This document shows positions 8,001 through 51,661 of a stretch of DNA of 64,000 nt, piece by piece. This stretch comes from Diadophis punctatus similis (Eukaryota > Chordata > Lepidosauria > Squamata > Dipsadidae). The notes under the pieces are model-generated. The model had not been told where the DNA came from. It saw only the letters and a list, made by a program, of their open reading frames with translations, and made no database searches. The first letter of the stretch is position 1. The number at the start of each line of letters is the position of its first letter. The position numbers and the translations under genes are program-made. Location: assembly GCA_023053685.1 (NCBI GenBank), contig JALIGW010000058.1, forward strand, positions 3,310,045 through 3,374,044, in the 5' to 3' direction.

Positions 8001-11000
8001 GCCTTAGGCATGAAAGCTGACTGGGGAACTTTGGGCCAATCACCAGGAGACGGTGAGTTCTAGTCCTGCCTTAGGCATGAAAGCTGACTGGGGGACTTTG
8101 GGCCAATCAACAGGAGACGGTGAGTTCTAGTCCTGCCTTAGGCATGAAAGCTGACTGGGGGACTTTGGGCCAATCACCAGGAGACGGTGAGTTCTAGTCC
8201 TGCCTTAAGCATGAAAGTCAACTGGGGGACTTTGGGCCAATCAACAGGAGACGGTGAGTTCTAGTCCTCCCTTAGGCATGAAAGTCACCTGCAGAACTTT
8301 GGGCCAATCACCAGGAGACAGTGAGTTCTAGTCCTGAGTAGTGAAAATCACCCGACTGGGTGATTTTGGACCAATCACCAGGAGACGGTGAGTTCTAGTC
8401 CTGCCTTAGGCATAAAAGCCAGCTGGGTGACTTTGGGCCAATCACTAGGCCAGTGTGAGTTCTAGTTCCTGACTGGGGAATTCTGGGAGTTGAAGTCCCC
8501 CCATCTTCAAACTGCCAAGGTTGAGAATCACTGCCTCTTACAGTAAATGGGAGGATTAAGATTGCAAAATGCCTTCCTAGAGAACAGCCACGAGGCCTCC
8601 TCCCTATATTTACATTATGGATTATAAAATGTTTTTAACTTTTCCTGTTTGCATCTGGCGTTTTTTTCCGATCTGCCTGAGGAACCACTCTTGAATATTT
8701 TATTATATATTGAAGAGCTGAACTCGTATGCAAGCATCGAATCGCAGCGGTATCAGATCAGAATATCGCTTCTGTGTCTTTCCCTGCAGTGCTACCTGCT
8801 AATTTAAGCCTAATATATTTTATAACTAAGTTGCTTTAAGTTTGCATTTGCTTTTCGTGCAATCCACGCGGCTCTGCCTGCACTGAAAATAATCCACCTT
8901 CGTTTTTGATGCAGATCTCTCACACTAAAAACCCTGCACAAACTTTTTTTTTTTAAAAAAAAAAGCTAGGAGTAACCCAGGGGTGGGCAAACTATGGTTC
9001 TTTGAGGACCTGTGGACTTCAACTCCCAGAATTCCTGAGCTAGCCATGCATGTATGGCTAACTCAGGAATTCTGGGAGTTGAAGTCCACAGATCCTCAAA
9101 GAACCATAGTTTGGCCACCCCTGGCAGTAACAGATCTATAATTATCTGCTGCTTTCTTGACCTTTAGGAAACAAAATAGCTGTGTTCCTCTGAATGGAAC
9201 CAATGCCTCCAGTACATGGCAGACCAAACCAGACCAAGCAGTTAAAAGGTGACATTAGATTTGGCCTCCAGCACTACACATTCCTTTCTAACAGATGGTT
9301 GGAAAAAGTTTCCTCCATGTGCAAGAGGAACTGCAGTCCTTCCTGGTCACAAGATAAAAATATTGGATTAGCTTCAAATCAGAGGAAATATAAACAGAGA
9401 GCAAACCCCACTCCTTTCCAGCACTGATGATGTTATCTAGTTGGGTTATGAAATGTCTGCAGGAAAACTACCAAGCTCAGAGAGCACCAAAGACCCTCCC
9501 ACCAAAGACCCTCCTCCTCCTCCTCTCATTCTCTTCGCTCCCTCTCCCCTTTTTCTTCTCTACCACTCCTACCCCTTCTTTACTCCACACTCCCTCCCAG
9601 CACTGATGTCGTTACCTAATTGGGTAATGAAATGTTTGCAAGAAAACCACCAAGCTCAGAGAGCACCAAGGACCCCACACTCCTCCTCCTCCCCCCCATT
9701 CCCCTTCTCTTTTCCTCCTCTCCCCTTCTTTCCCACTCCTCCTCCTCCTCCTCTATTCCACACTCTCTTCTAACACTGATGATGTTACCTAGCTGGGTAA
9801 TGAAAAATCTGCAAACAAGCAAACGATCTCAGAAAGCACTACGTTCCTCAAAGAGCACCAAGGACCCCGCAGTTCTCCTCCTCTTTACAAACCTCACTCC
9901 CTTCTAACACTGATGATGTTACCTAGTCAGGTTATGAAATGTCTGCAAGAACATATTCAACCTCAGAGAGCACCAAGGACCCTACAGTCCTCCTCCTCCT
10001 CTCTGCAAACCCCACTCCCTTCTAGCCTGATGGTGTTACTTAGTTTGGTAATGAAATGTCTCCAAGAAAACAACCAAGCTCACAGAGGACCCCACAGTTC
10101 TCCTCCTCCTCTACAAACTCCACTCCCTTCCAGCACTGATGATGTTACCTAGTCAGGTTACGAAACGTCTGCAAGAACATATTCAACCTCAGAGAGCCCC
10201 AAGGACCCCCGAGAAGAAAACTGCCCCACCCAGGGACCTCTGTTGCTTTACTTACTTTGAAGAAGAGATAGAGGCCTAGGAGGGTACAGCTGGCAACGAT
10301 AGGAAAACGGGCCGCATCTCGGCTGGTGATGGTCTCTGGCATATCCGATGCATTCTAGAAGAGAAAAGGGCCAAGATTGAGACCCCCCCTGGTGTAGCAG
10401 GCAAGAAGCCAGGATCTTGCAACGACACTCAAAAGCCAGCCCACCTCATCCTTTACAGATTTACAGATTATTAGAGTTGGAAGGGACCTTGTAGGTCATC
10501 TAGTCCAATCCCCCGCATCCTCATCAACTGAACCCCTCCACATTCCACAGCGGAAGCTGTGGCGTGAGGCAAGCAGTCCACCCCACCGAGGCTTGCGGCT
10601 GTCGGTTTTTACAGCCCTCACAAGCACTGCTCAAGGCTTGTGAGCAGTGTTTCTCAACCTTGGCAGTTTGAAGATGTGTGGACTTCAACTCCCAGAATTC
10701 CACAGCCAGCAACGCTGGCTGGGGAATTCTGGGAGTTGAAGTCCACACATCTTCAAACTGCCAAGGTTGAGAAACACTGCTCGTGAGGGTTGCACAAGGA
10801 CCGGTGGCAAATTAGCCTTCTTGGCAGGAAGGCACCGTACGGAGCTCTGCCCTGCTACGTGCAAACAGCTGTTTCTATTGAACTTTTTCTGCTTTTTGAT
10901 TTAATCTGAATATCCTGCTAAATATCCCTTTGGCGGTTGCAGCGCTTGGCTGCTTCGTGTGATAACTTGGAATCCTTCTGACCTCCTTTTTTTTTTAACC

Positions 11001-14000: not shown

Positions 14001-15198
14001 AGAAGCAGAGACTAAATAGGAAAAAGGCAAACACTGGTGTGTTTTCCCCCCTCTATCATCGATTCAAAGCGGGGTGGGGCCACATACCTTTAGTCACCTC
14101 TGAGCACAATCCTTTGCACTAATCCTGGGGACCAGCTGGGGTTTCACACACACACACACCCTACCAAAAAAGGACTGGGAGGGGGGCAGACAGGAACACA
14201 CCCCATTGCTGTACATGGGACCCCCTATTTGCTCAAAACACACACACACCAGTCTTATTGGATCCCAGGCAGCAGTCAAGTCTGCTGGGACAGATAGTCA
14301 GAACCAGCCAAGGTGGGAGACCAGGAGGGAGAAAAATACACCCCACCCCAATACAAGTGGGACATAGCCTACAACCAGTCTCTTAAGTGACCCTTCAAAG
14401 TTACAGACAGTCCTCGACTTACGACCACAAGAGACCCCAATTCTTGTTGCCAAGCGAGGCATTTCCTAAGCAAACCGCGCGCCTCCTGTTTTACAACCTT
14501 TCTGGCCACAATCTCTGCTGCCGCTAAGTGAGTCGCACGGTCGTTAAGCGAATCCGGCTATCCCCATGGACTTTGCCAGTTGAAAGGCGGCAAAAAAAAA
14601 AGGGATCATGTAACACACACACACATCCGGGACACTGCGCGACCGTCATAAAGATGAGTCACTTGCCCAGCGTGTGAATTTTGATCAACGTGACCGCGGG
14701 GAGGGCCGCGATGGTCGTTAAGTGTGAAAAAAAACGGTCCTAAGCCCCTTTCTCAGAGACGTTGTAACTTGGGTCACTAAATGAATGGTTGTAAGTCGAG
14801 GATTAGCTTCATAGCCATGTTTCTGAAACTTGGCCCCTTTAAGAGGGGGTGGACTTCAACTCCCAGAATTCCCCAGCCAGCGTTTCTGGCTGGGGAATTC
14901 TGGGAGTTGAAGTCCACCCCCTCTTAAAGGGGCCAAGTTTGATTTTAGGGACGAAAGCCCATACTGAGATAGACTGCCCCTGCTTGAGGAGGCTCTCCTC
15001 CTCCTCCTCCTCCTCCTTCCTCACCTTCCCTTTGGCGCAGGTGACGGAGCGCAGCGCCCCGAAGAAGATGGGCAGCAGAGCCATGACCACCAGGCTGCCG
15101 TAGGCCAACGCCATGCCTTCGGGGGTGGCCGGGGGTCGCGTGCCGGCCGTGGGGGCTTCGGCCGCCCCGCTGCCGTTGTGCGCCTCGGCCTGCTCCAT
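3262..15198 (-). CDS. HM13: HM13 (signal peptide peptidase), 5' part: coding exons 1-3
   Basis: HM13 encodes signal peptide peptidase, a multi-pass intramembrane aspartyl protease of the endoplasmic reticulum that cleaves signal-peptide remnants. Spliced coding: 15198-15025, 10354-10256, 3344-3262. Joined, they give about 118 residues that read alongside the human N-terminus, with the human exon breaks. The exons cover the glycosylated luminal start and the first three hydrophobic segments; the catalytic YD and GLGD motifs lie in later exons, outside the window. The 4.7-kb and 6.9-kb introns are filled with transposon fragments. REM1 lies upstream on the same strand, as in human. The identification rests on long identical peptide runs recalled from human HM13; no other family fits. 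Confidence 0.95.
3345..3612 (-). other. HM13 intron 2, AT-rich, with a short GTGTGT/TATATA tract
   Basis: No interspersed repeat recognised. A short alternating tract occurs near 3497-3540. Confidence 0.5.
3613..3732. repeat. (GATA)n microsatellite grading into GAGA
   Basis: Around 20 GATA units, then imperfect GAGATA/GAGA. One of five long GATA tracts in the window (others at 26518-26650, 28823-28911, 45075-45214 and 45716-46137). Confidence 0.95.
3733..4475 (-). other. HM13 intron 2, AT-rich, no recognised feature
   Basis: Very AT-rich with A-runs on the plus strand near 4040-4220. The short open frames here are compositional. No repeat family recognised. Confidence 0.5.
4476..4562 (+). 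mobile_element. LINE 3'-end fragment with (AATAAA)n-like tail
   Basis: The motif GCGCCCTGAGTCCCCAGGGA is followed by GGGCGGCATATAAGAATCG and an A/T-rich tail. This ending is typical of vertebrate L2-like LINE/SINE 3' ends; the class is inferred. Confidence 0.5.
4592..4995 (+). mobile_element. Solo LTR with perfect 5-bp target duplication
   Basis: The 404-bp element begins TGTCAGG and ends CCTGACA, a 7-bp inverted terminal repeat with TG...CA ends. It is flanked by GTCTA at 4587-4591 and again at 4996-5000. An AATAAA lies near 4919. No internal coding region is present, so it is a recombined solo LTR; whether it is retroviral or gypsy-like is not decided. Confidence 0.85.
5052..5418 (-). mobile_element. 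tRNA-derived SINE (minus) with (TTAT)n and (GCTT)n tail
   Basis: Read on the minus strand, the head is GCGCAGCGGTTAGAGGCAGT with a B-box-like GGTTCAAATC, then AACAATCTGGGTC-type body and GAGGCGGTATATAAATGTC, ending in an A/T tetranucleotide tail that has expanded at 5100-5190. The (GCTT)n run at 5057-5098 lies beyond the tail. Sister copies are at 25665-25885 and 30237-30507. Confidence 0.85.
5450..6222. mobile_element. MITE-1, two abutting or nested copies
   Basis: AGGTAGTCCTCGACCTACGA occurs near 5502 with a second, partial end at 5456; the interior carries GTTGTTAAGTGAATC, CACGTGACC and CGGTCATAAATG motifs. A second body runs from about 5868 to 6222. MITE-1 is almost palindromic, so orientation is arbitrary. 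Its open frames are not coding. Confidence 0.8.
6223..7015 (-). other. HM13 intron 2, no recognised feature
   Basis: Single-copy-looking sequence. No exon of HM13 is expected here because exons 2 and 3 abut in phase without it. Confidence 0.5.
7016..7260 (+). repeat. Repeat U, two diverged units
   Basis: The unit carries ACTGATGATGTTNCCTAGTT, GGTAATGAAACGTCTGCAAG, AAACCACCAAGCTCAGAG and ACCAAGGACCCC, followed by a CCTCCTCCT stretch. The same unit is tandemly amplified at 9416-10205 and, inverted, at 50278-50985. Its parent element was not identified. Confidence 0.75.
7245..7485. mobile_element. MITE-1 half
   Basis: CCGGCTTCCCCATTGGCTTG, CACGTGACCAGGGGGATGCT and GTCGTAAGTGGAGGGCTACC are right-half motifs of MITE-1. 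The left half is absent. Confidence 0.7.
7486..7811 (-). other. HM13 intron 2, no recognised feature
   Basis: No repeat or exon recognised. Confidence 0.5.
7812..8465 (+). repeat. 67-bp minisatellite grown inside a tRNA-derived SINE
   Basis: The array starts with a SINE head (TGGGCTAGAGGTTAAGGCAC, then AAGTTCTAGTCC) and then repeats about nine times a unit carrying ACCAGGAGACGGTGAGTTCT, AGTCCTGCCTTAGGCATGAA and GACTTTGGGCCAATC. The unit spans the B-box-like segment and the SINE core, so the array is an internal tandem expansion of the SINE. The same family is at 15837-17400, 38690-38965 and 49200-49545. Confidence 0.88.
8466..8978 (-). other. HM13 intron 2; half of a MITE-3 arm, then unique sequence
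   Basis: 8470-8535 carries GGGGAATTCTGGGAGTTGAA and GCCAAGGTTGAGAATCACTG, one arm of MITE-3. The rest shows nothing recognisable. Confidence 0.5.
8979..9124. mobile_element. MITE-3-related hairpin element
   Basis: A near-perfect inverted repeat: the left arm AGGGGTGGGCAAACTATGGT... GACTTCAACTCCCAGAATTC is mirrored at 9057-9124 with a loop near 9040-9056. The outer arms differ from other MITE-3 copies, so it is a sister family. AGTAAC flanks both sides with a one-base offset. Confidence 0.8.
9125..9415 (-). other. HM13 intron 2, no recognised feature
   Basis: No repeat or exon recognised. Confidence 0.45.
9416..10205 (+). repeat. Repeat U tandem array
   Basis: About five to six units of roughly 130-170 bp, each with CACTGATGATGTTACCTAGT, a GTAATGAAATGTCTGCAAG block, CTCAGAGAGCACCAAGGACC and a CT-rich linker. 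The array stops only about 50 bp before HM13 exon 2 on the plus-strand map, so it lies just downstream of the exon-2 donor. Confidence 0.85.
10256..10354 (-). CDS. HM13: HM13 coding exon 2
   Basis: 99 bp, exactly 33 codons, phase 0 at both ends. The acceptor TTCTAG precedes AAT at 10354; the donor AAA|GTAAGT follows 10256. The peptide opens NASDMPETITSRDAARFPIV and continues ASCTLLGLYLFFK, as in human except FPII to FPIV. The hydrophobic part is the second membrane segment. Confidence 0.96.
10462..10515 (-). mobile_element. CR1 3'-tail remnant
   Basis: AGAGTTGGAAGGGACCTTGT and GGTCATCTAGTCCAATCCCC are the inverted CR1/SINE 3' tail. Confidence 0.75.
10645..10779. mobile_element. MITE-3 hairpin, hAT-type, 8-bp target duplication
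   Basis: The 135-bp element has ends CAGTGTTTCTCAACCTTGGC and its reverse complement, with long arms nearly perfect around GACTTCAACTCCCAGAATTC. Flanks are CTTGTGAG (10637-10644) and CTCGTGAG (10780-10787), 7 of 8 matching. Its CAGTGTTTCTCAA end matches the EAF1-carrying element at 19963. Confidence 0.9.
10788..11940 (-). other. HM13 intron 1, low-complexity A/T and G runs
   Basis: Contains A- and T-runs near 11000-11040 and 11420-11450, a poly-G tract at 11614-11650, and no recognised interspersed repeat or exon. Confidence 0.5.
11942..12311. mobile_element. MITE-1 copy
   Basis: Left end GCAGGCAGTTCTTGACTTGT, right end GTAAGTCGAGGACTACCTGT. The interior has the TTGCCACGGTTGCTAAGTGA and GATCACGTGAC blocks. 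Confidence 0.85.
12361..13155 (-). mobile_element. CR1 LINE 3' fragments, split by a MITE-3
   Basis: Minus-strand CR1: a truncated piece at 12361-12530, a second piece starting with the tail AACAGAGTTGGAAGGGACCT at 12540, and the RT C-terminal end to 13155. The younger MITE-3 at 12802-12928 interrupts the second piece. Confidence 0.88.
12802..12928. mobile_element. MITE-3 hairpin with perfect 8-bp target duplication
   Basis: Arms read CAGGGGTGTCCAACCTTGGC and reverse complement. CTTTAGGG occurs at 12794-12801 and 12929-12936, inside CR1 sequence, which proves insertion after the CR1. Confidence 0.92.
13156..13625 (-). other. HM13 intron 1, no recognised feature
   Basis: Single-copy-looking sequence, no exon or repeat recognised. 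Confidence 0.5.
13626..13831. repeat. Polypurine tract, (GGAA)n core
   Basis: Pure or nearly pure purine on the plus strand: GGAG/GAGA margins around a (GGAA)n core at about 13725-13782. Confidence 0.95.
13832..14398 (-). other. HM13 intron 1, short CA tracts only
   Basis: (CA)n stretches near 14146-14159 and 14239-14250. Nothing else recognised. Confidence 0.5.
14400..14808. mobile_element. MITE-1 copy
   Basis: GACAGTCCTCGACTTACGAC at the left and GTTGTAAGTCGAGGATTAGC at the right; an internal (CA)n insertion near 14611-14624. Confidence 0.85.
14826..14940. repeat. Perfect 55-bp-arm palindrome (MITE-3 hairpin)
   Basis: Bases 14826-14880 are the exact reverse complement of 14886-14940, with a 5-base loop CGTTT. 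The arms carry CTTTAAGAGGGGGTGGACTT and CAACTCCCAGAATTCCCCAG. It lies in HM13 intron 1, 85 bp inside the exon-1 donor. Confidence 0.95.
15025..15198 (-). CDS. HM13: HM13 coding exon 1
   Basis: 174 bp, 58 codons, leaving in phase 0 at AAG|GTGAGG. The start ATG at 15198 is in strong Kozak context (GCGGCGATGG). An open frame continues upstream but has no ATG. Residues 7-11 HNGSG hold an N-glycosylation sequon as in human. STPEG-like PATPEG precedes the first membrane segment, MALAYGSLVVMALLPIFFGA, then LRSVTCAKGK. The N-terminal 25 residues differ from human; the rest is nearly identical. Confidence 0.95.
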
Positions 15199-15420
15199 CG
15201 CCGCCACAGCCCGCACTTCCGACCCGGCAGAGGCGGCCCCGCAGCGCCCAGGGACACGTTCCCTTACCAGCCGGAAGTGGCCCGCGGCGCATGCGCCGGC
15301 GTCGCAACCGAGCGGACACGCCCCCTGGAAACGACGGCGGCCCTGCCCGTTGCTAGGCAGCCGCCACCGCCGGGCCTACTTGGAGTAAAATGGGGAGCCT
15401 CGGCTGGGTCGACCCTTGCC
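15030..15420 (-). promoter_or_regulatory. HM13: HM13 CpG-rich promoter
   Basis: The segment is dense in CpG unlike its surroundings and covers exon 1 and its upstream side. The palindrome GCGCATGCGC at 15287-15296 fits the NRF1 consensus. CCGGAAGTG at 15271-15279 (plus strand) and CGGAAGTGC across 15213-15222 (minus strand) fit ETS/GABP sites. These are typical of housekeeping TATA-less promoters; activity is inferred. Confidence 0.75.
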
Positions 15421-19874: not shown

Positions 19875-19962
19875 CAGAAGCAATGCTTATTGGCTGCTGA
19901 GGTGCTTCTGGATCCAATTCAAGATGCTGATTGTCACTTTCAAAGCCCTCTATGGCTTAAGG

Positions 19963-20630
19963 CAGTGTTTCTCAAATAGTGGGGCATACCCCCCTGGGGG
20001 GGGGCGCAGACCGATGCCAGGGGGGCACGTGTGACCCCGGGGAACATGCATGGTCCCTCCCAATCGATTCCCCCAGACGGGGAGTGTTTTCCCAGTTGCA
20101 CACTGCTCCGAGCCCGGAAGAGAAGGTGGCCAGGCGGGGCGGGACGGCCGCCTGGGTTCTTGTTGTTCTCGGCGGACGTCGCGGTAGCCATGGACGGCGT
20201 GGCGAACCTGCTGCTGGACAAGGAGGAGCATCCTCTGCAGCTGGGCGAAAGCTTCGAACGGCACCCTAAAGCCTCCTTCCACACCATTCGCTGTGAGTGC
20301 CCGGCAGAGGCGGCGCTTATGGGCCAGGCCGGCGACCCCAAAACATCGGCTTGATTAAGCTGGCCTGGCCCCGTGTCAAAAGAGGGCCCTAACCACGGTA
20401 GCCTTTGCCTGCCTAACCGAAAACAGGCTCCACTGAGTTCAGTGTGACTTACTCCCAGGTAAGTGGGTAGAGCAGCCTTCCCCAGCCAATAGTTTGCTTG
20501 CAGCTTATAATAAGTAAAATAATAAATATTAACACAAATTCCATTGGGGCCCAGATCGGAGAGTTGGGGGCGTGTGAAATGTTTACTTCTTCCTAGGGGG
20601 GGCGTAACAGAAAATAATTGAGAAGCACTG
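19963..20630 (+). mobile_element. 668-bp hAT-like element carrying an EAF1 first exon, copy 1
   Basis: Ends are CAGTGTTTCTCAAA at the left and, on the other strand, CAGTGCTTCTCAATTATTTT at the right, typical of hAT (Charlie-like) termini. The flanks GCTTAAGG (19955-19962) and GCTTAAGA (20631-20638) are an 8-bp target duplication with one difference. It carries no transposase. About 160 bp of CpG-rich sequence precede a start codon at 20190. A second copy of exactly the same length is at 24786-25453 in inverted orientation. Confidence 0.9.
20190..20292 (+). pseudogene. EAF1: Captured EAF1 coding exon 1 inside hAT copy 1
   Basis: EAF1 is a cofactor of the ELL elongation factor in the super elongation complex. 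From the ATG at 20190 (context TAGCCATGG) 34 codons read [20 protein letters not shown], then [14 protein letters not shown], close to the human EAF1 start as recalled, including GESFE and ASFHTIR. The codon for the next residue is split by GCT|GTGAGT at 20292/20293, the expected exon-1 donor, so genomic DNA rather than mRNA was captured. The frame is open with no stop. It cannot make EAF1 alone; a spliced chimera is possible but unshown. Confidence 0.82.
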
Positions 20631-20785
20631 GCTTAAGATCGGGTTATTTGAAGGACTCTTTTCCCAGTTGCATCTACCAACGTAGCATAATGAGGAGGCA
20701 GGGGATGTTGTGGGTCCCCTTCTAAGGAGGTCCACCTGGTAGGACTCAGAAGAAGGGCCTTCTCCGTCATTGGTTCATCCCTGTG

Positions 20786-20882
20786 GAAATAAGCCAAAGG
20801 TGCTTTTTCAAGAGGCAAATAGACTTTCTTGTTTTTCTTTGAAGACGTTTCGCTTCTCATCCAAGCAGTTTCTTGCATTCCA
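20786..20882 (+). repeat. Repeat V
   Basis: AAGACGTTTCGCTTCTCATC and AAGCAGTTTCTTGCATTCCA. An inverted relative lies at 21183-21300. Confidence 0.65.
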
Positions 20883-21182
20883 GTAGTTGAGGGGCTGCCA
20901 CAAAGAGGAGGGGTCAATTTATTTTCCAAAGCACCCGAAGGCAGGACAGGAAGCAAGGGATGGAAACTAATCAAGGAGAGAAGCAACCTAGAATTGAGGA
21001 GAGACTTCCTAACAGTGAGGACAATTAACCAGTGGAACGGCTTGCCACCAGAAGTTGTAGTTGCTTCATCACTGGAGGTTTTTAAGAAGAGACTGGACAG
21101 TCACTTGTCTGAAACGATATAAGATCTCCTGCTTGAGCAGGGGGCTGGACTAGAAGACCTCCAAGGTCCCTTCCAGGTCTAT
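20883..21182 (+). mobile_element. CR1 3'-end fragment
   Basis: TTGAGGGGCTGCCACAAAGA through AGACCTCCAAGGTCCCTTCC. Confidence 0.88.
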
Positions 21183-21300
21183 TCTGATTCTAATTCTCAG
21201 ACATGAAGAAGCTTCTTGGTTGAGAAGTGAAACGTCTTCAAAGAAAAACAAGTACAATTGCCTCTTGAAAAAACAGCTTTGAGACAACCATGACCTGGAT
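21183..21300 (-). repeat. Repeat V, inverted
   Basis: GAAGAAGCTTCTTGGTTGAG and AAGTGAAACGTCTTCAAAGA are the reverse complement of repeat V. Confidence 0.65.
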
Positions 21301-21560
21301 GACATAGACACTGCGGAGAGAAGATTGGCCCCCACCTTGATACTCTTTCAAAAGACCCTGAAGACCTGGTTTTGTAAACAGGCCTGGAGACCCCAGGGGG
21401 ATACGGAGTTCATTAACTGGTTGGTTTGATCATTGTCACCAGAAAGTTTGAGGATCATTGGCGTTTGCATTGGGGTTTCATTTCTCTGAGCTGCCAGAAT
21501 CGCCCTGAGTCAATTGGGCTGCCAAACAAACCTGAATAAATGTATTTATTCAACTTAGAA

Positions 21561-22449
21561 ACCGTCCATTTCTCCTGGAGATTTATTTATACATAAATAA
21601 CTGTAGGAGGGGAAACTCCAGGAAGGCGCAGAAGAGCAGGATGGATCTGCTGTTGAAGGTGGTGAGCGCTCTGCTCAAGCCAAGCTTGCTTGGTCTCTTG
21701 TCTCTTGTTTTGGAGGAAGAGGAAACATTGAATACTAGTAGCTGGATACCCGTGCTGCGCTACGAAATTATGTGATCGGGCTTGATACATTGACACTTGA
21801 GAATTTATGTAGAAAGTGTAACTCCTTAGCATCAAAGCGTATTAATATAAGGCAACTGGCAGTTGGAATGGAGTTCTTTTCAGGTGGGGAGGGGGAGTAG
21901 AATATCTAAACTCCCAGTCTGCAGGCCGGATAAGTCATGCGCTGGCCACGCCCACCTTTAGCGAAGGGGTCGCATCAGAGCGTGTTAATATAAGGCAACT
22001 GGCAGTTGGAATAGAGTTCTTTTCAGGTGGGGAGGGGGAGTAGCATCCTTAGCCCTTGCAGAGCGTGTTAATATAATACTGTATAAGAAATACTAATGAT
22101 CTGATGGTCATTTCGAAAAATCCTTTCTTAGCGAGCACCTAGAAGCCAAGAGGAACATACGTGCCAAGTTTCAAGTTTGTAGGCTTTACAGTTCTGGATA
22201 TTTCATGATGAGTGAGTGGTATTTGGCTTATATATATATATATAGATTTGATTGGTGAGAGCTGGACCAATTATGGCAGGGAATGCTGGGTTGTAGGCTC
22301 ATCAGGAAACCCTTGTAGGAAACCAATCACGTCGGGAAATCAAGCCACAATAGGAATGCAGGAAGAACAGGACCCACGGAGAGTCCTAGGGAGCGAGTGT
22401 CCATACAAGTGTCTCGGCCTCCAGGGGGTAGCAAAATCCCATTATATGG
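21561..22449. repeat. Unassigned repeat with a duplicated block of about 67 bp
   Basis: GTTAATATAAGGCAACTGGC, TTGGAATRGAGTTCTTTTCA and GGTGGGGAGGGGGAGTAG occur at about 21839-21903 and again at 21983-22043, and a third partial copy follows at 22050-22080. GCTGGATACCCGTGCTGCGC nearby suggests a transposon edge; the family was not named. Confidence 0.5.
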
Positions 22450-22640
22450 ACTATCCTGTTTGTGGAAAGTCTGTAGAGATTCTCAGTCCTCCAGGTCATG
22501 GTTGTCCCAAAGGTGCTTTTGCAGGAGGCAACTGGACTTTCTTGTTTTTTTCTTTTTGAAGACGTTTCGCTTCTCATCCGAGAAGCTTCTTCAGCTCTGA
22601 CTGGATGGTGGGGAATAATGGAAGGATTTATACTCCTTGC
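22450..22640 (+). repeat. Repeat V with flanking body
   Basis: GAAGACGTTTCGCTTCTCAT, CCGAGAAGCTTCTTCAGCTC, preceded by CCCAAAGGTGCTTTTGCAGG, as at 20786 and 47515. Confidence 0.7.
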
Positions 22641-22671
22641 AAGAAAGCTGGACATTTGCATCGTTTTAGAG

Positions 22672-23129
22672 CAGGGGACTGCAACCTTAAACACTCAAAC
22701 AGCCATTTGGACCCATTCCCCACAGAAAATAAAACACCAGGAGCCACAAAACCTGGGTGGGCGTGTCCAACTCGACATCACTCACTTCCACCAGACACAT
22801 GACCTCCCTAGCCACGCCCACCCAGCCAGTCATTAGGGCAGAGAACCGGTTGTTAAAAAACACCGGGAACCACAAAACCCATTTCACACCTCTCTCCCTC
22901 GCTCCCCCCCCTCTCTCTGTCTCTCTATCTCCCCCTCTCTCTGTCTCTCTCTGTCTCTGCCCCAGCAGCTTCTCCTTCCCCCCGCTGTCGCCCTTACCTT
23001 CTCAGGCCAGGTGAGGAGTGACTGGGTGGGAGAGGGGTGGGGCCAGCCAATGGTGGGAACACCCGACAGGAAGCCACAGCAGAGGGCCCAAAGAGCCGCA
23101 TGCGGCTCCGGAGCCGCAGGTTGCTGACA
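22672..23129. mobile_element. hAT-like element with CT-rich microsatellite inside
   Basis: The left end CAGGGGACTGCAACCTTAAA pairs with the right end CCGCAGGTTGCTGACACCC. Its right side joins CR1 sequence. A polypyrimidine run occupies about 22898-22980. Target duplication not resolved. Confidence 0.65.
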
Positions 23130-23402
23130 CCCGTTCTTCGTATGTTTTAGCCTCCAGTCCCCTAATCCTCTTTGTTGCTCTTCTCCGCACTCTTTCTAGA
23201 GTCTCAACATCCTTTTTACATCATGGCAACCAAAACTGAATGCAGCATTCCAAGTATGGCCTTACCAAGGCATTATAAAGGGGTATTAACACTTCGCGTG
23301 ATCTTGATTCTATCCCTCTGTTGATGCAGCCTAGAACTGTGTTGGCTTTTTTGACAGCTGCTGCACACGGCTGGCTCATATTTAAGTGATTGAGAAACAC
23401 CA
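23130..23402 (-). mobile_element. CR1 RT fragment (minus)
   Basis: Minus-strand translation includes [20 protein letters not shown] and [17 protein letters not shown]. The CR1 RT C-terminal region is 5'-truncated. Confidence 0.88.
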
Positions 23403-23515
23403 CAGTCTAGTTCGGATGTATCCATGAACATGGCGAGACAAAAGAATCTTGCCAGTTTACCAGACAGATGGCCTAGGGAGCAAAGCCGTTCCGGAATCTG
23501 GAAGTCCTGCTAGAT
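23403..23515. other. No recognised feature
   Basis: Short unassigned spacer. Confidence 0.4.
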
Positions 23516-23648
23516 GGGGTCTTCAACCTTGGCAACTTTAAGACTTGTGGACTACAACTCCCAGAATTCCTCAGCCAGCAAAGCTGGCTGAGGAATTCTG
23601 GGAGTTGAAGTCCACAAGTCTTAAAGTTGCCAAGGTTGGAGACCCCTG
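23516..23648. mobile_element. MITE-3 hairpin
   Basis: TTCAACCTTGGCAACTTTAA with its mirror TTAAAGTTGCCAAGGTTGGA. TGCTAGAT at the left and TGCTAGAA at the right suggest an 8-bp duplication. Confidence 0.85.
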
Positions 23649-23687
23649 TGCTAGAAATATTCCAAAAACCCCTCCCAGAGAGATTAC

Positions 23688-23803
23688 AGATTAACAGAGT
23701 TGGAAGGGACCTTGCAGGTCATCTAGTCCAACCCCCTGCCCAAGCAGGAGACCCTACATCTGCCTCTACCTAGGATCGAACTCACAACCTCCTGATTGGA
23801 GCA
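23688..23803 (-). mobile_element. tRNA-headed SINE with CR1-type tail
   Basis: Minus strand: CCAATCAGGAGGTTGTGAGT, TTCGATCCTAGGTAGAGGCA (B-box), then GTAGGGTCTCCTGCTTGGGC and the CR1 3' end to CCTTCCAACTCTGTTAATC. The head is tRNA-derived and the tail is CR1, so it is presumably mobilised by CR1 machinery. Confidence 0.8.
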
Positions 23804-24095
23804 ACAGAAACAGACCGTGAAGTTGGTGTGTGTGGGGTCTCTAACAATGCTTTGAATGCATAGCGGATTTGGGTGACCGGAAGGATTGAAAATTGCCCCT
23901 GCAAACTTTTAGCCCATTTTAAGATCTGTAGTTGAGTCTGTGCAACTCATCCAGTGGTTTCATTGCCGCGAAACCTCCTGGGTGTTTCCCCTTCCTTGGG
24001 AAGCTGCTTTTGCAAAGCTTCCCACCGTCCGACATGGCAAGAAACGGCACCGGGGAGGACCCAGCTGCATCGTCCAGCCGTTGCTTCCGACTGCA
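23804..24095. other. No recognised feature
   Basis: No repeat or exon recognised. Confidence 0.4.
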
Positions 24096-24482
24096 GCTAG
24101 TCCTCAACTTACCACAGTCCATTTAGTGACCATTCAAAGCCACAAAGGCCCTGAAAAAAGTGGCCTGCGACCGTTTTTCGTACCTACTACCATCCCTGAG
24201 GCCACATGATCAAAATTCAGACACTTGCCAGCAGGTTCGTATTTATGACGGTTGCAGCGTCCTGGGGGTGACGTAATCCCCCCCCCCCGCGTTTTGCGAC
24301 TTTCGGACAAGCAGTCCATGGGGAAGCCAGATTCACTTAACAACCAGGTTACTGCAGTGCTTCGCTTAACAACTGGGGGAAGAAAGGTCTCAAAATGGGG
24401 CGAAATTCACCGAACCCATGTCTCCCTGAGCAGCGGAAATGTCGGGCTGACTTGTGGTCGTAAGACGAGGACTCTCCCCGTA
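24096..24482. mobile_element. MITE-1 copy
   Basis: CTAGTCCTCAACTTACCACA to TGGTCGTAAGACGAGGACTC, with the usual interior. Confidence 0.82.
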
Positions 24483-24785
24483 CATGGAGCAAAACTTCTC
24501 TTGGCTTCCTTTCTGGATCTTTTGCACCGGGGTGAAGTTTACAGCTCTCTAATGAAACCGCCTTGTAAAGCTACTCAGATGTTCCACATAGCTGGAAAGG
24601 AGCCAGGAATCACTGGAAAATTGGCCGAAAAATGCATTTTCCTTTGGAATTCTTCCTTTCCTTGTAGAGTTGTTGATTAGCACGTTGGCGTTGGCGATAT
24701 TATTTCCTATTAAACCTCTTTCCACTTTCCCAGCATCTTGTTGTCTGGTCTGTTAGCCAGCTGTGGGGAGTGGGTTACTCTACAG
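24483..24785. other. No recognised feature
   Basis: Unassigned spacer of about 300 bp. Confidence 0.4.
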
Positions 24786-25453
24786 CAGTGCTTCTCAATT
24801 ATTTTCTGTTACCCCCCCCCCTAGGAAGAAGTAAACATTTTGCACGCCCCCAACTCTCCAATCTGGGCCCCAATGAAATTTTAGTGTTAATATTTATTAT
24901 TTTACTTATTCTAAGCTGCAAGCAAACTATTGGCTGGGGAAGGCTGCTCTACCCACTTACCTGGGAGTAAGTCACACTGAACTCAGTGGAGCCTGTTTTC
25001 GGTTAGGCAGGCATAGGCTACCGTGGTTAGGGCCCTCTTTTGACACGGGGCCGGGCCAGCTTAATCAAGCTGATGTTTTGGGGTCGCCGGCCTGGCCCAT
25101 AAGCGCCGCCTCTGCCGGGCACTCACAGCGAATGGTGTGGAAGGAGGCTTTAGGGTGCCGTTCGAAGCTTTCGCCCAGCTGCAGAGGATGCTCCTCGTCC
25201 AGCAGCAGGTTCGCCATGCCGTTCATGGCTACCGCGGCGCCCGGCGAGAACAACAAGAACCCACGTAGCCGCCCCGCCCCGCCTGGCCGCCTTCTCTTCC
25301 AGGCTCGGAGCAGCGTGCAACTGGGAAAACACTCCCCGTCCGGGGGAATCAATCGAGAGGGACCACACATGTTCCCCGGGGTCACATGCGCCCTCCCATG
25401 GCATCACTCTGAGCCCCCCCAGGGGGGCGCACCGCACTACTTGAAAAGGACTG
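24786..25453 (-). mobile_element. 668-bp hAT-like element carrying an EAF1 first exon, copy 2
   Basis: Inverted relative to copy 1 and the same length. CTCTACAG (24778-24785) and CTCTACGG (25454-25461) are an 8-bp duplication with one difference. Different target sequences at the two copies show two separate insertions rather than one segmental inversion. Confidence 0.9.
25127..25226 (-). pseudogene. EAF1: Captured EAF1 coding exon 1 inside hAT copy 2
   Basis: The start ATG at 25226 opens 33 codons, [20 protein letters not shown] then [13 protein letters not shown], one codon shorter than copy 1 (an in-frame 3-bp loss after LLLD). The donor GCT|GTGAGT is intact at 25127/25126. The MNG start is closer to human EAF1 than copy 1's MDG. 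Confidence 0.82.
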
Positions 25454-25664
25454 CTCTACGGGCAGTCCTTGCATTATGACCATGATGGGGACCAGAATTT
25501 ACATTACAGATAGTCCTCGACGTACGACCGCTCAGAATTAATGTAGCGAAGGGAGAAATTTGTTAAGTGAGTTTTGGCCCCGTTTTCCCGACTTTTCTTA
25601 CCACCGTTGTTCAGTGAATGACTGCAGTTCTGAAACGAGTAACATGGTTGGTAAGTGAATAGCA

Positions 25665-44699: not shown

Positions 44700-51620
<6,921 letters not shown>

Positions 51621-51661
51621 CTTCGGCCCAAGAGAATCGGTCCACGGTTAGCTTGGCTGCT
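51621..51661 (-). other. REM1: REM1 5' UTR part of the first coding exon (predicted)
   Basis: A plausible acceptor CCTCTTTCACCAG ends at 51662, leaving a 41-nt leader before ATG. The polypyrimidine tract overlaps the edge of a CR1 copy lying antisense to the gene. Confidence 0.5.

Follow-up and report, generated by a model that had tools for sequence, protein, structure and literature searches.

How does the first exon of EAF1, with its splice donor and adjoining DNA, come to stand twice, in inverted orientation, at a snake locus that does not appear to be that of EAF1? The question is raised by a stretch of 64,000 nucleotides from Diadophis punctatus similis (assembly GCA_023053685.1, contig JALIGW010000058.1, positions 3,310,045 to 3,374,044 of the forward strand), hereafter the window, in which a first-pass annotation had described two units of exactly 668 bp. 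Our analysis indicates that these units are very probably two copies of a non-autonomous hAT element that captured the 5' flank, exon 1, donor and intron 1 start of EAF1 as DNA, and then transposed. Capture of genomic DNA followed by mobilisation is also what the first-pass annotation had proposed, and it is supported by the ends of the units, their target-site duplications (TSDs) and the presence of the donor with a segment of intron.

Two insertions of a hAT-type element

The coordinates, lengths and orientation previously given for the two units are exact (Table 1). Copy 2 is inverted with respect to copy 1, 4.2 kb lie between them, and both are found inside 5.5 kb. Aligned end to end, the copies are 93.7% identical, with differences at 42 of the 663 ungapped columns and 10 gap columns; since the indels cancel, the equal length of 668 bp is partly a coincidence. 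A terminus of the CAGTG type is a mark of hAT elements, and both units have CAGT at the start and CACTG at the end. When the first 16 bases were counted against the inverted last 16, 14/16 agreed in copy 1 and 13/16 in copy 2, i.e. the units possess short terminal inverted repeats (TIRs) of this type, although imperfect ones.

The hAT-type ends are accompanied, as had been claimed, by separate 8-bp TSDs. In each copy, the two members of the TSD pair are alike at 7/8 bases, in keeping with the 8-bp duplication of hAT elements, and the pairs differ between the copies; the chance of a match of at least 7/8 at a fixed place is 3.8e-4 per TSD. Both TSDs have a central TA and fit nnnTAnnn, given in PMC3517528 as the TSD consensus of the Buster branch of hAT, yet 1/16 of random octamers would do so and n is 2. 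The alignment of the copies stops outside the TSDs, where the adjoining flanks are unrelated. As their distinct TSDs show, the copies arose by two separate insertions. A search for empty sites with the joined flanks found neither junction spanned at any other place in the window.

Scanning the window for the end motif returned 15 matches against 7.57 expected, a count that is weak in itself, given that at least 15 were also reached in 3 of 100 shuffles. Four of the 15 are the termini of the two units themselves, and five have two mismatches each. The remaining six (8521, 10645, 10767, 40116, 41467 and 62421) were inspected; after about 13 bases they resemble another, palindromic hAT-like miniature inverted-repeat transposable element (MITE). 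This MITE (CAGTGTTTCTCAACCTTGGCAGTTTGAAGATGTGTGGACTTCAACTCCCAGAATTC) is recurrent in the window, at 10645-10779 and with related ends at 8521-8533, 41467 and 62421; it shares its first 13 bases with the unit ends and differs in the remainder. A similar palindrome lies at 23516-23646.

The EAF1 exon within the units

Each unit contains an ATG (at 20190 in copy 1 and 25226 in copy 2) whose frame is open, over 34 or 33 codons, up to a GTGAGT donor, with CpG-rich DNA upstream and intron-like DNA adjoining the donor, just as the first reading of the sequence had it. The copy-1 frame closes at a TGA (20352-20354) inside the intron-like segment. The EAF1 identity proposed by the first-pass annotation is supported by phmmer against the PDB sequences, where residues 1-34 of the copy-1 product fall on residues 1-34 of EAF1 (7okx chain O) with E 5.3e-11, the next match having E 1.5; EAF1 homologues, against which the close match to EAF1 demanded by the first-pass annotation was examined, match as well. 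The 54-residue open reading frame (ORF) compared with 5.8 billion proteins gave five candidates, all EAF1-type and all at E <=2.4e-11, and the homologue P0005 used as query gave eight, P0005 itself included, all at E <=2e-9. In Pfam, the exon products, short peptides of 35 and 34 residues, matched 0 families. Exact-match searches of viral contigs gave 0 matches for the exon pattern and 0 for the end pattern, a plasmid search gave 0, and a genome-contig search by peptide pattern matched 45 stretches, of which 0 were confirmed.

Three read-through proteins, P0007 (duck), P0008 and P0009, have ...FHTIRCE, and their match to the units stops at residue 36 (RCE). At the corresponding place, the zebra finch gene model P0013, with PF09816, has ...FHTIRYDFKPASID, with RYDF in place of RCE. 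From this difference between read-through and spliced model, we infer an exon boundary directly behind the first base of codon 35, at the GT of the units. P0013 (A0A674GAA8) is named Maturin, has EAF1 residues at its start and contains both PF15167 and PF09816; either the gene model is a fusion or the transcript is chimeric. In both copies, a second site that fits the full donor consensus, CAG/GTAAGT, is found 166 bases 3' of the exon donor.

The exon differs between the copies at 2/100 columns, and the next 100 bp of intron also at 2/100. Given that a single exon is carried, that copy 2 is one codon short and that the exon is no more conserved than the adjoining intron, the EAF1 exon is most likely passive cargo.

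Antisense to the units there are stop-free frames of 230 codons (19940-20632, nearly all of copy 1) and 200 codons (24877-25479, most of copy 2). With the 230-codon ORF as query, 8 of 655 candidates had E <=1, all of them over the antisense of the EAF1 exon and none spanning the whole element.

Extent of the cargo DNA

Proteins were compared with the units by a script that writes them as degenerate codons, which is a lenient measure. Over element positions 123-426, P0010 is compatible at 235/244 informative sites with copy 1 and at 232/240 with copy 2; over positions 192-419, P0005 is compatible at 180/186 and 175/185, respectively. Beyond the exon, the tail of P0010 scores 129 and that of P0005 111, whereas shuffles reach no more than 23 for either. 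These proteins come from contigs of 1007 (P0010) and 1165 bases (P0005). The DNA flanking the exon in the units is presumably EAF1's own.

In the intron segment, both copies differ by the same single base from P0005, P0006 and P0010, which fits one captured ancestor of both copies; the difference would represent a deletion in that ancestor if the polarity is as we suppose. P0005 and the copies also agree in a leucine, at a place occupied by proline or serine in P0006-P0013, and for this reason P0005 is probably another family copy. P0010 may be either a family copy or a parental locus.

GC >=0.60 together with a CpG ratio >=0.75 was found in 55 of the 3185 300-bp windows; they fall in 7 places, two of which are the units. 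Over element positions 61-400, the CpG observed/expected ratio is 0.80 and 0.83, against a 95th percentile of 0.91 for the whole stretch, so the ratio alone is unexceptional.

Table 1. Features of the two units and their borders (positions in the 64,000-nucleotide window)
Feature	Position	Strand	Remarks
Copy 1 of element	19963..20630	+	668 bp, termini CAGTGTTTCTCAA ... TTGAGAAGCACTG
Left TSD of copy 1, GCTTAAGG	19955..19962	.	7/8 equal to right TSD; fits nnnTAnnn
Right TSD of copy 1, GCTTAAGA	20631..20638	.	
Upstream / 5' untranslated region (UTR) flank, copy 1	20085..20189	+	Rich in CpG; compatibility with P0010 from element position 123
EAF1-like exon 1, copy 1	20190..20292	+	34 codons plus one base (T)
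5' splice donor GTGAGT, copy 1	20293..20298	+	Probably phase 1
Intron-like segment, copy 1	20299..20388	+	Common to P0010 (to element position 426) and P0005 (to 419)
Second donor-like site CAG/GTAAGT, copy 1	20459..20464	+	
Copy 2 of element	24786..25453	-	668 bp
TSD of copy 2, CTCTACAG	24778..24785	.	
TSD of copy 2, CTCTACGG	25454..25461	.	
EAF1-like exon 1, copy 2	25127..25226	-	33 codons plus one base; a Lys codon of copy 1 is missing
5' splice donor GTGAGT, copy 2	25121..25126	-	GT at 25126
Second donor-like site GTAAGT, copy 2	24955..24960	-	

Genomic neighbourhood

Three GTPase exons lie on the minus strand: a REM1-like exon at 51222-51647 (best PDB match REM 1, E 1.8e-9), an exon at 48546-48899 (Pfam Ras, E 1.3e-12) and one at 44703-45068, whose best match is GEM, followed by RAD and REM 1. 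A reading on the same strand at about 14950-15375 is taken by us to be the first exon of HM13, for which PDB and Pfam give no support. The position of the REM1-like exons upstream of the HM13-like exon presumably corresponds to the vertebrate REM1-HM13 neighbourhood. Both units are located between the REM1-like exons and the HM13-like reading. On account of these neighbours, and of the two inverted copies of exon 1, the locus was taken as not being that of EAF1. No further EAF1 exon was found in the window, which was searched with the unit only.

Comparison with known gene-capturing transposons

The elements had been likened to plant Pack-MULEs. The analogy is apt, but a nearer precedent exists in the Pack-TIRs of animals, mostly hAT and Tc/Mariner elements; Tan et al. 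(2021) reported 370 of them in 100 animal reference genomes, 208 being hAT (PMC8277862). Gene capture by animal hATs is, given these reports, a known process. Multicopy Pack-TIRs number four (1.4%) in that study, three from frogs and one from alligator; one is a hAT carrying 291 bp of the CAPSL 5' UTR, and FoSTeST was proposed for the multicopy cases (PMC8277862). The criteria for Pack-TIRs in that study include a parental sequence at another place of the same genome, with an identity of at least 90% and no flanking transposable elements (PMC8277862). The units have host-gene sequence internal to two TIR ends, these ends being known from the two copies; containing donor and intron segment, they are not intronless copies, and they are present as two copies with distinct TSDs. 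We file them as a probable multicopy Pack-hAT with a first-exon cassette, an added case of the known Pack-TIR kind.

Plant Pack-TYPE elements and Pack-MULEs belong mostly to superfamilies other than hAT. They resemble the units in being DNA transposons with pieces of host genes, and differ in kingdom (PMC8903248, PMC8277862). Pack-hAT-N8_XT of Xenopus tropicalis, like the units, has hAT ends, a captured host-gene 5' region and several copies with distinct TSDs, but the units carry EAF1 instead of CAPSL, have a start codon, coding exon, donor and intron segment aboard, and are hosted by a snake (PMC8277862). Ssk-FB4 of Drosophila populations is likewise a multicopy transposon with a captured host gene and distinct TSDs, although it holds an almost complete, transcribed gene, in contrast to the single first exon of the units (PMC8277862). 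In Turmoil-1 of C. elegans, coding sequence has also been transduplicated into an animal transposable element, a difference being that its cargo is inside the inverted terminal repeats (PMC2572040). Mar, a Buster-type hAT MITE of Drosophila, shares with the units the 8-bp TSD with central TA, the short TIRs and the non-autonomous state, whereas no host-gene cargo is reported for it in PMC3517528. The word snake is absent from the main text of PMC8277862. Among the matches listed from open-licence PMC literature (titles and abstract starts), there was no report of an EAF1-bearing element, and EAF1 together with transposon and snake had no open-licence PMC match.

Origin of the units

How the element arose can be proposed in outline. 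Template switching or gap repair, as in the FoSTeST and gap-filling models of Tan et al., would have brought EAF1 DNA into a hAT element, in what was probably a single capture before the two insertions. The chimera would then have moved by a cut-and-paste mechanism, with the hAT transposase provided in trans, presumably by an autonomous hAT as driver.

Several observations weigh against this origin by capture and transposition. The divergence between the copies is uneven: 31/224 columns differ in the first 226 bp and 11/439 in the rest (Fisher p 6.5e-8), a split statistic reached in 0 of 2000 permutations, so that the 5' third (19963-20188 vs 25228-25453) has about five times the divergence of the remainder. 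The non-CpG columns are uneven too (15/174 vs 6/399, p 9e-5) and the CpG columns weakly so (16/50 vs 5/40, p 0.044). When the first 60 bp, with their G runs, are left out, the overall contrast is kept (18/166, p 6.6e-5), but that of non-CpG columns becomes weaker (7/124, p 0.017) and that of CpG columns is lost (11/42, p 0.16). Such a pattern does not agree with uniform decay of both copies since a single ancestor, and it needs gene conversion or a mosaic source; conversion between inverted neighbours, or a mosaic source, is a possible explanation. Moreover, the ends are short (14/16 and 13/16) and the TSDs imperfect, P0005 and P0010 may be parental loci, and the comparison covers EAF1 homologues and two copies with readable ends. 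Nor can the capture breakpoint be placed from the alignments of P0006 and P0008-P0012. P0006, from Laticauda, aligns through the exon and about 35 further bases (element position 365) and then stops, its tail scoring 28 against 25 for the best of 100 shuffles; the other tails are not above the shuffle maximum (P0011 22 vs 25, P0012 18 vs 27, P0008 14 vs 24, P0009 20 vs 23).

An inverted segmental duplication of one EAF1-bearing fragment would agree with the orientation of the copies and with their distance of merely 4.2 kb, and some similarity does exist between the flanks, where BLAST of 1 kb on each side gave five repeat-like matches with identities of 70-87%. None of these touches a unit end, however, one pairs opposite sides, and the repeat adjoining copy 2 matches 14 other places in the window, all of which identifies them as similarity between interspersed repeats. 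Flanks shared beyond the TSDs, which the first-pass annotation had named as the sign of a segmental duplication, were not found; the likeness stops at the hAT termini, the two copies are bordered by different TSDs, and we reject this very improbable origin. Processed retrocopies of EAF1 mRNA could place exon 1 at a locus unlike that of EAF1, but here a donor and DNA other than exon 2 come after the exon, as in P0005 and P0010, and a flank as in P0010 comes before it, while the unit ends show inverted hAT-type termini and no poly(A). Because upstream genomic DNA, donor and intron are included, the units are not retrocopies, an origin that we reject and whose probability is close to nil.

Capture followed by transposition could also have remained a local event, in which one element hopped nearby, gene conversion acted within the pair, and the few copies are mostly or all in this region. 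This differs from the preferred reading in extent only. hAT elements can reinsert locally, both copies stand within 5.5 kb, and they agree far better in their interior than in the 5' third; P0005 and P0010, on the other hand, may be further copies, and we consider so restricted an event possible but doubtful. It is unlikely that the captured cassette acts as a mobile promoter and first exon, providing new 5' ends for nearby host genes. Such a role would be in line with the CpG-island-like composition, the ATG, the exon-1 donor and the second full-consensus donor of both copies, with the direction of copy 2 toward the HM13-like gene some 10 kb off, and with the chimeric transcripts from Pack-TIRs noted in PMC8277862. 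Yet these are features of the sequence, copy 1 is directed away from the HM13-like gene, and the CpG ratio by itself is ordinary. An in-frame join with this gene is not expected, since the end of HM13-like exon 1 is guessed to be in phase 0 and the EAF1 donor is probably in phase 1.

Implications

Few animal DNA transposons with a captured gene have been documented as multicopy, the cases in PMC8277862 being the four mentioned above and Ssk-FB4. The uneven divergence of the inverted copies may record gene conversion. Copies of this kind can be called truncated EAF1 genes, which is a warning for annotation; the 63-residue UniRef entry P0006 from Laticauda illustrates that read-throughs of EAF1 exon 1 do enter protein databases. 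In principle, new transcription starts and first exons could arise from a cargo that consists of CpG-rich upstream DNA, first exon and donor. It is rather improbable that the units belong to a dispersed family of mobile first exons, with EAF1 promoter island, ATG and functional donor, whose insertions, upstream of a gene or within one, can serve as alternative promoters and first exons across the snake genome. If this were true, mobile first exons would spread EAF1-like regulation over that genome.

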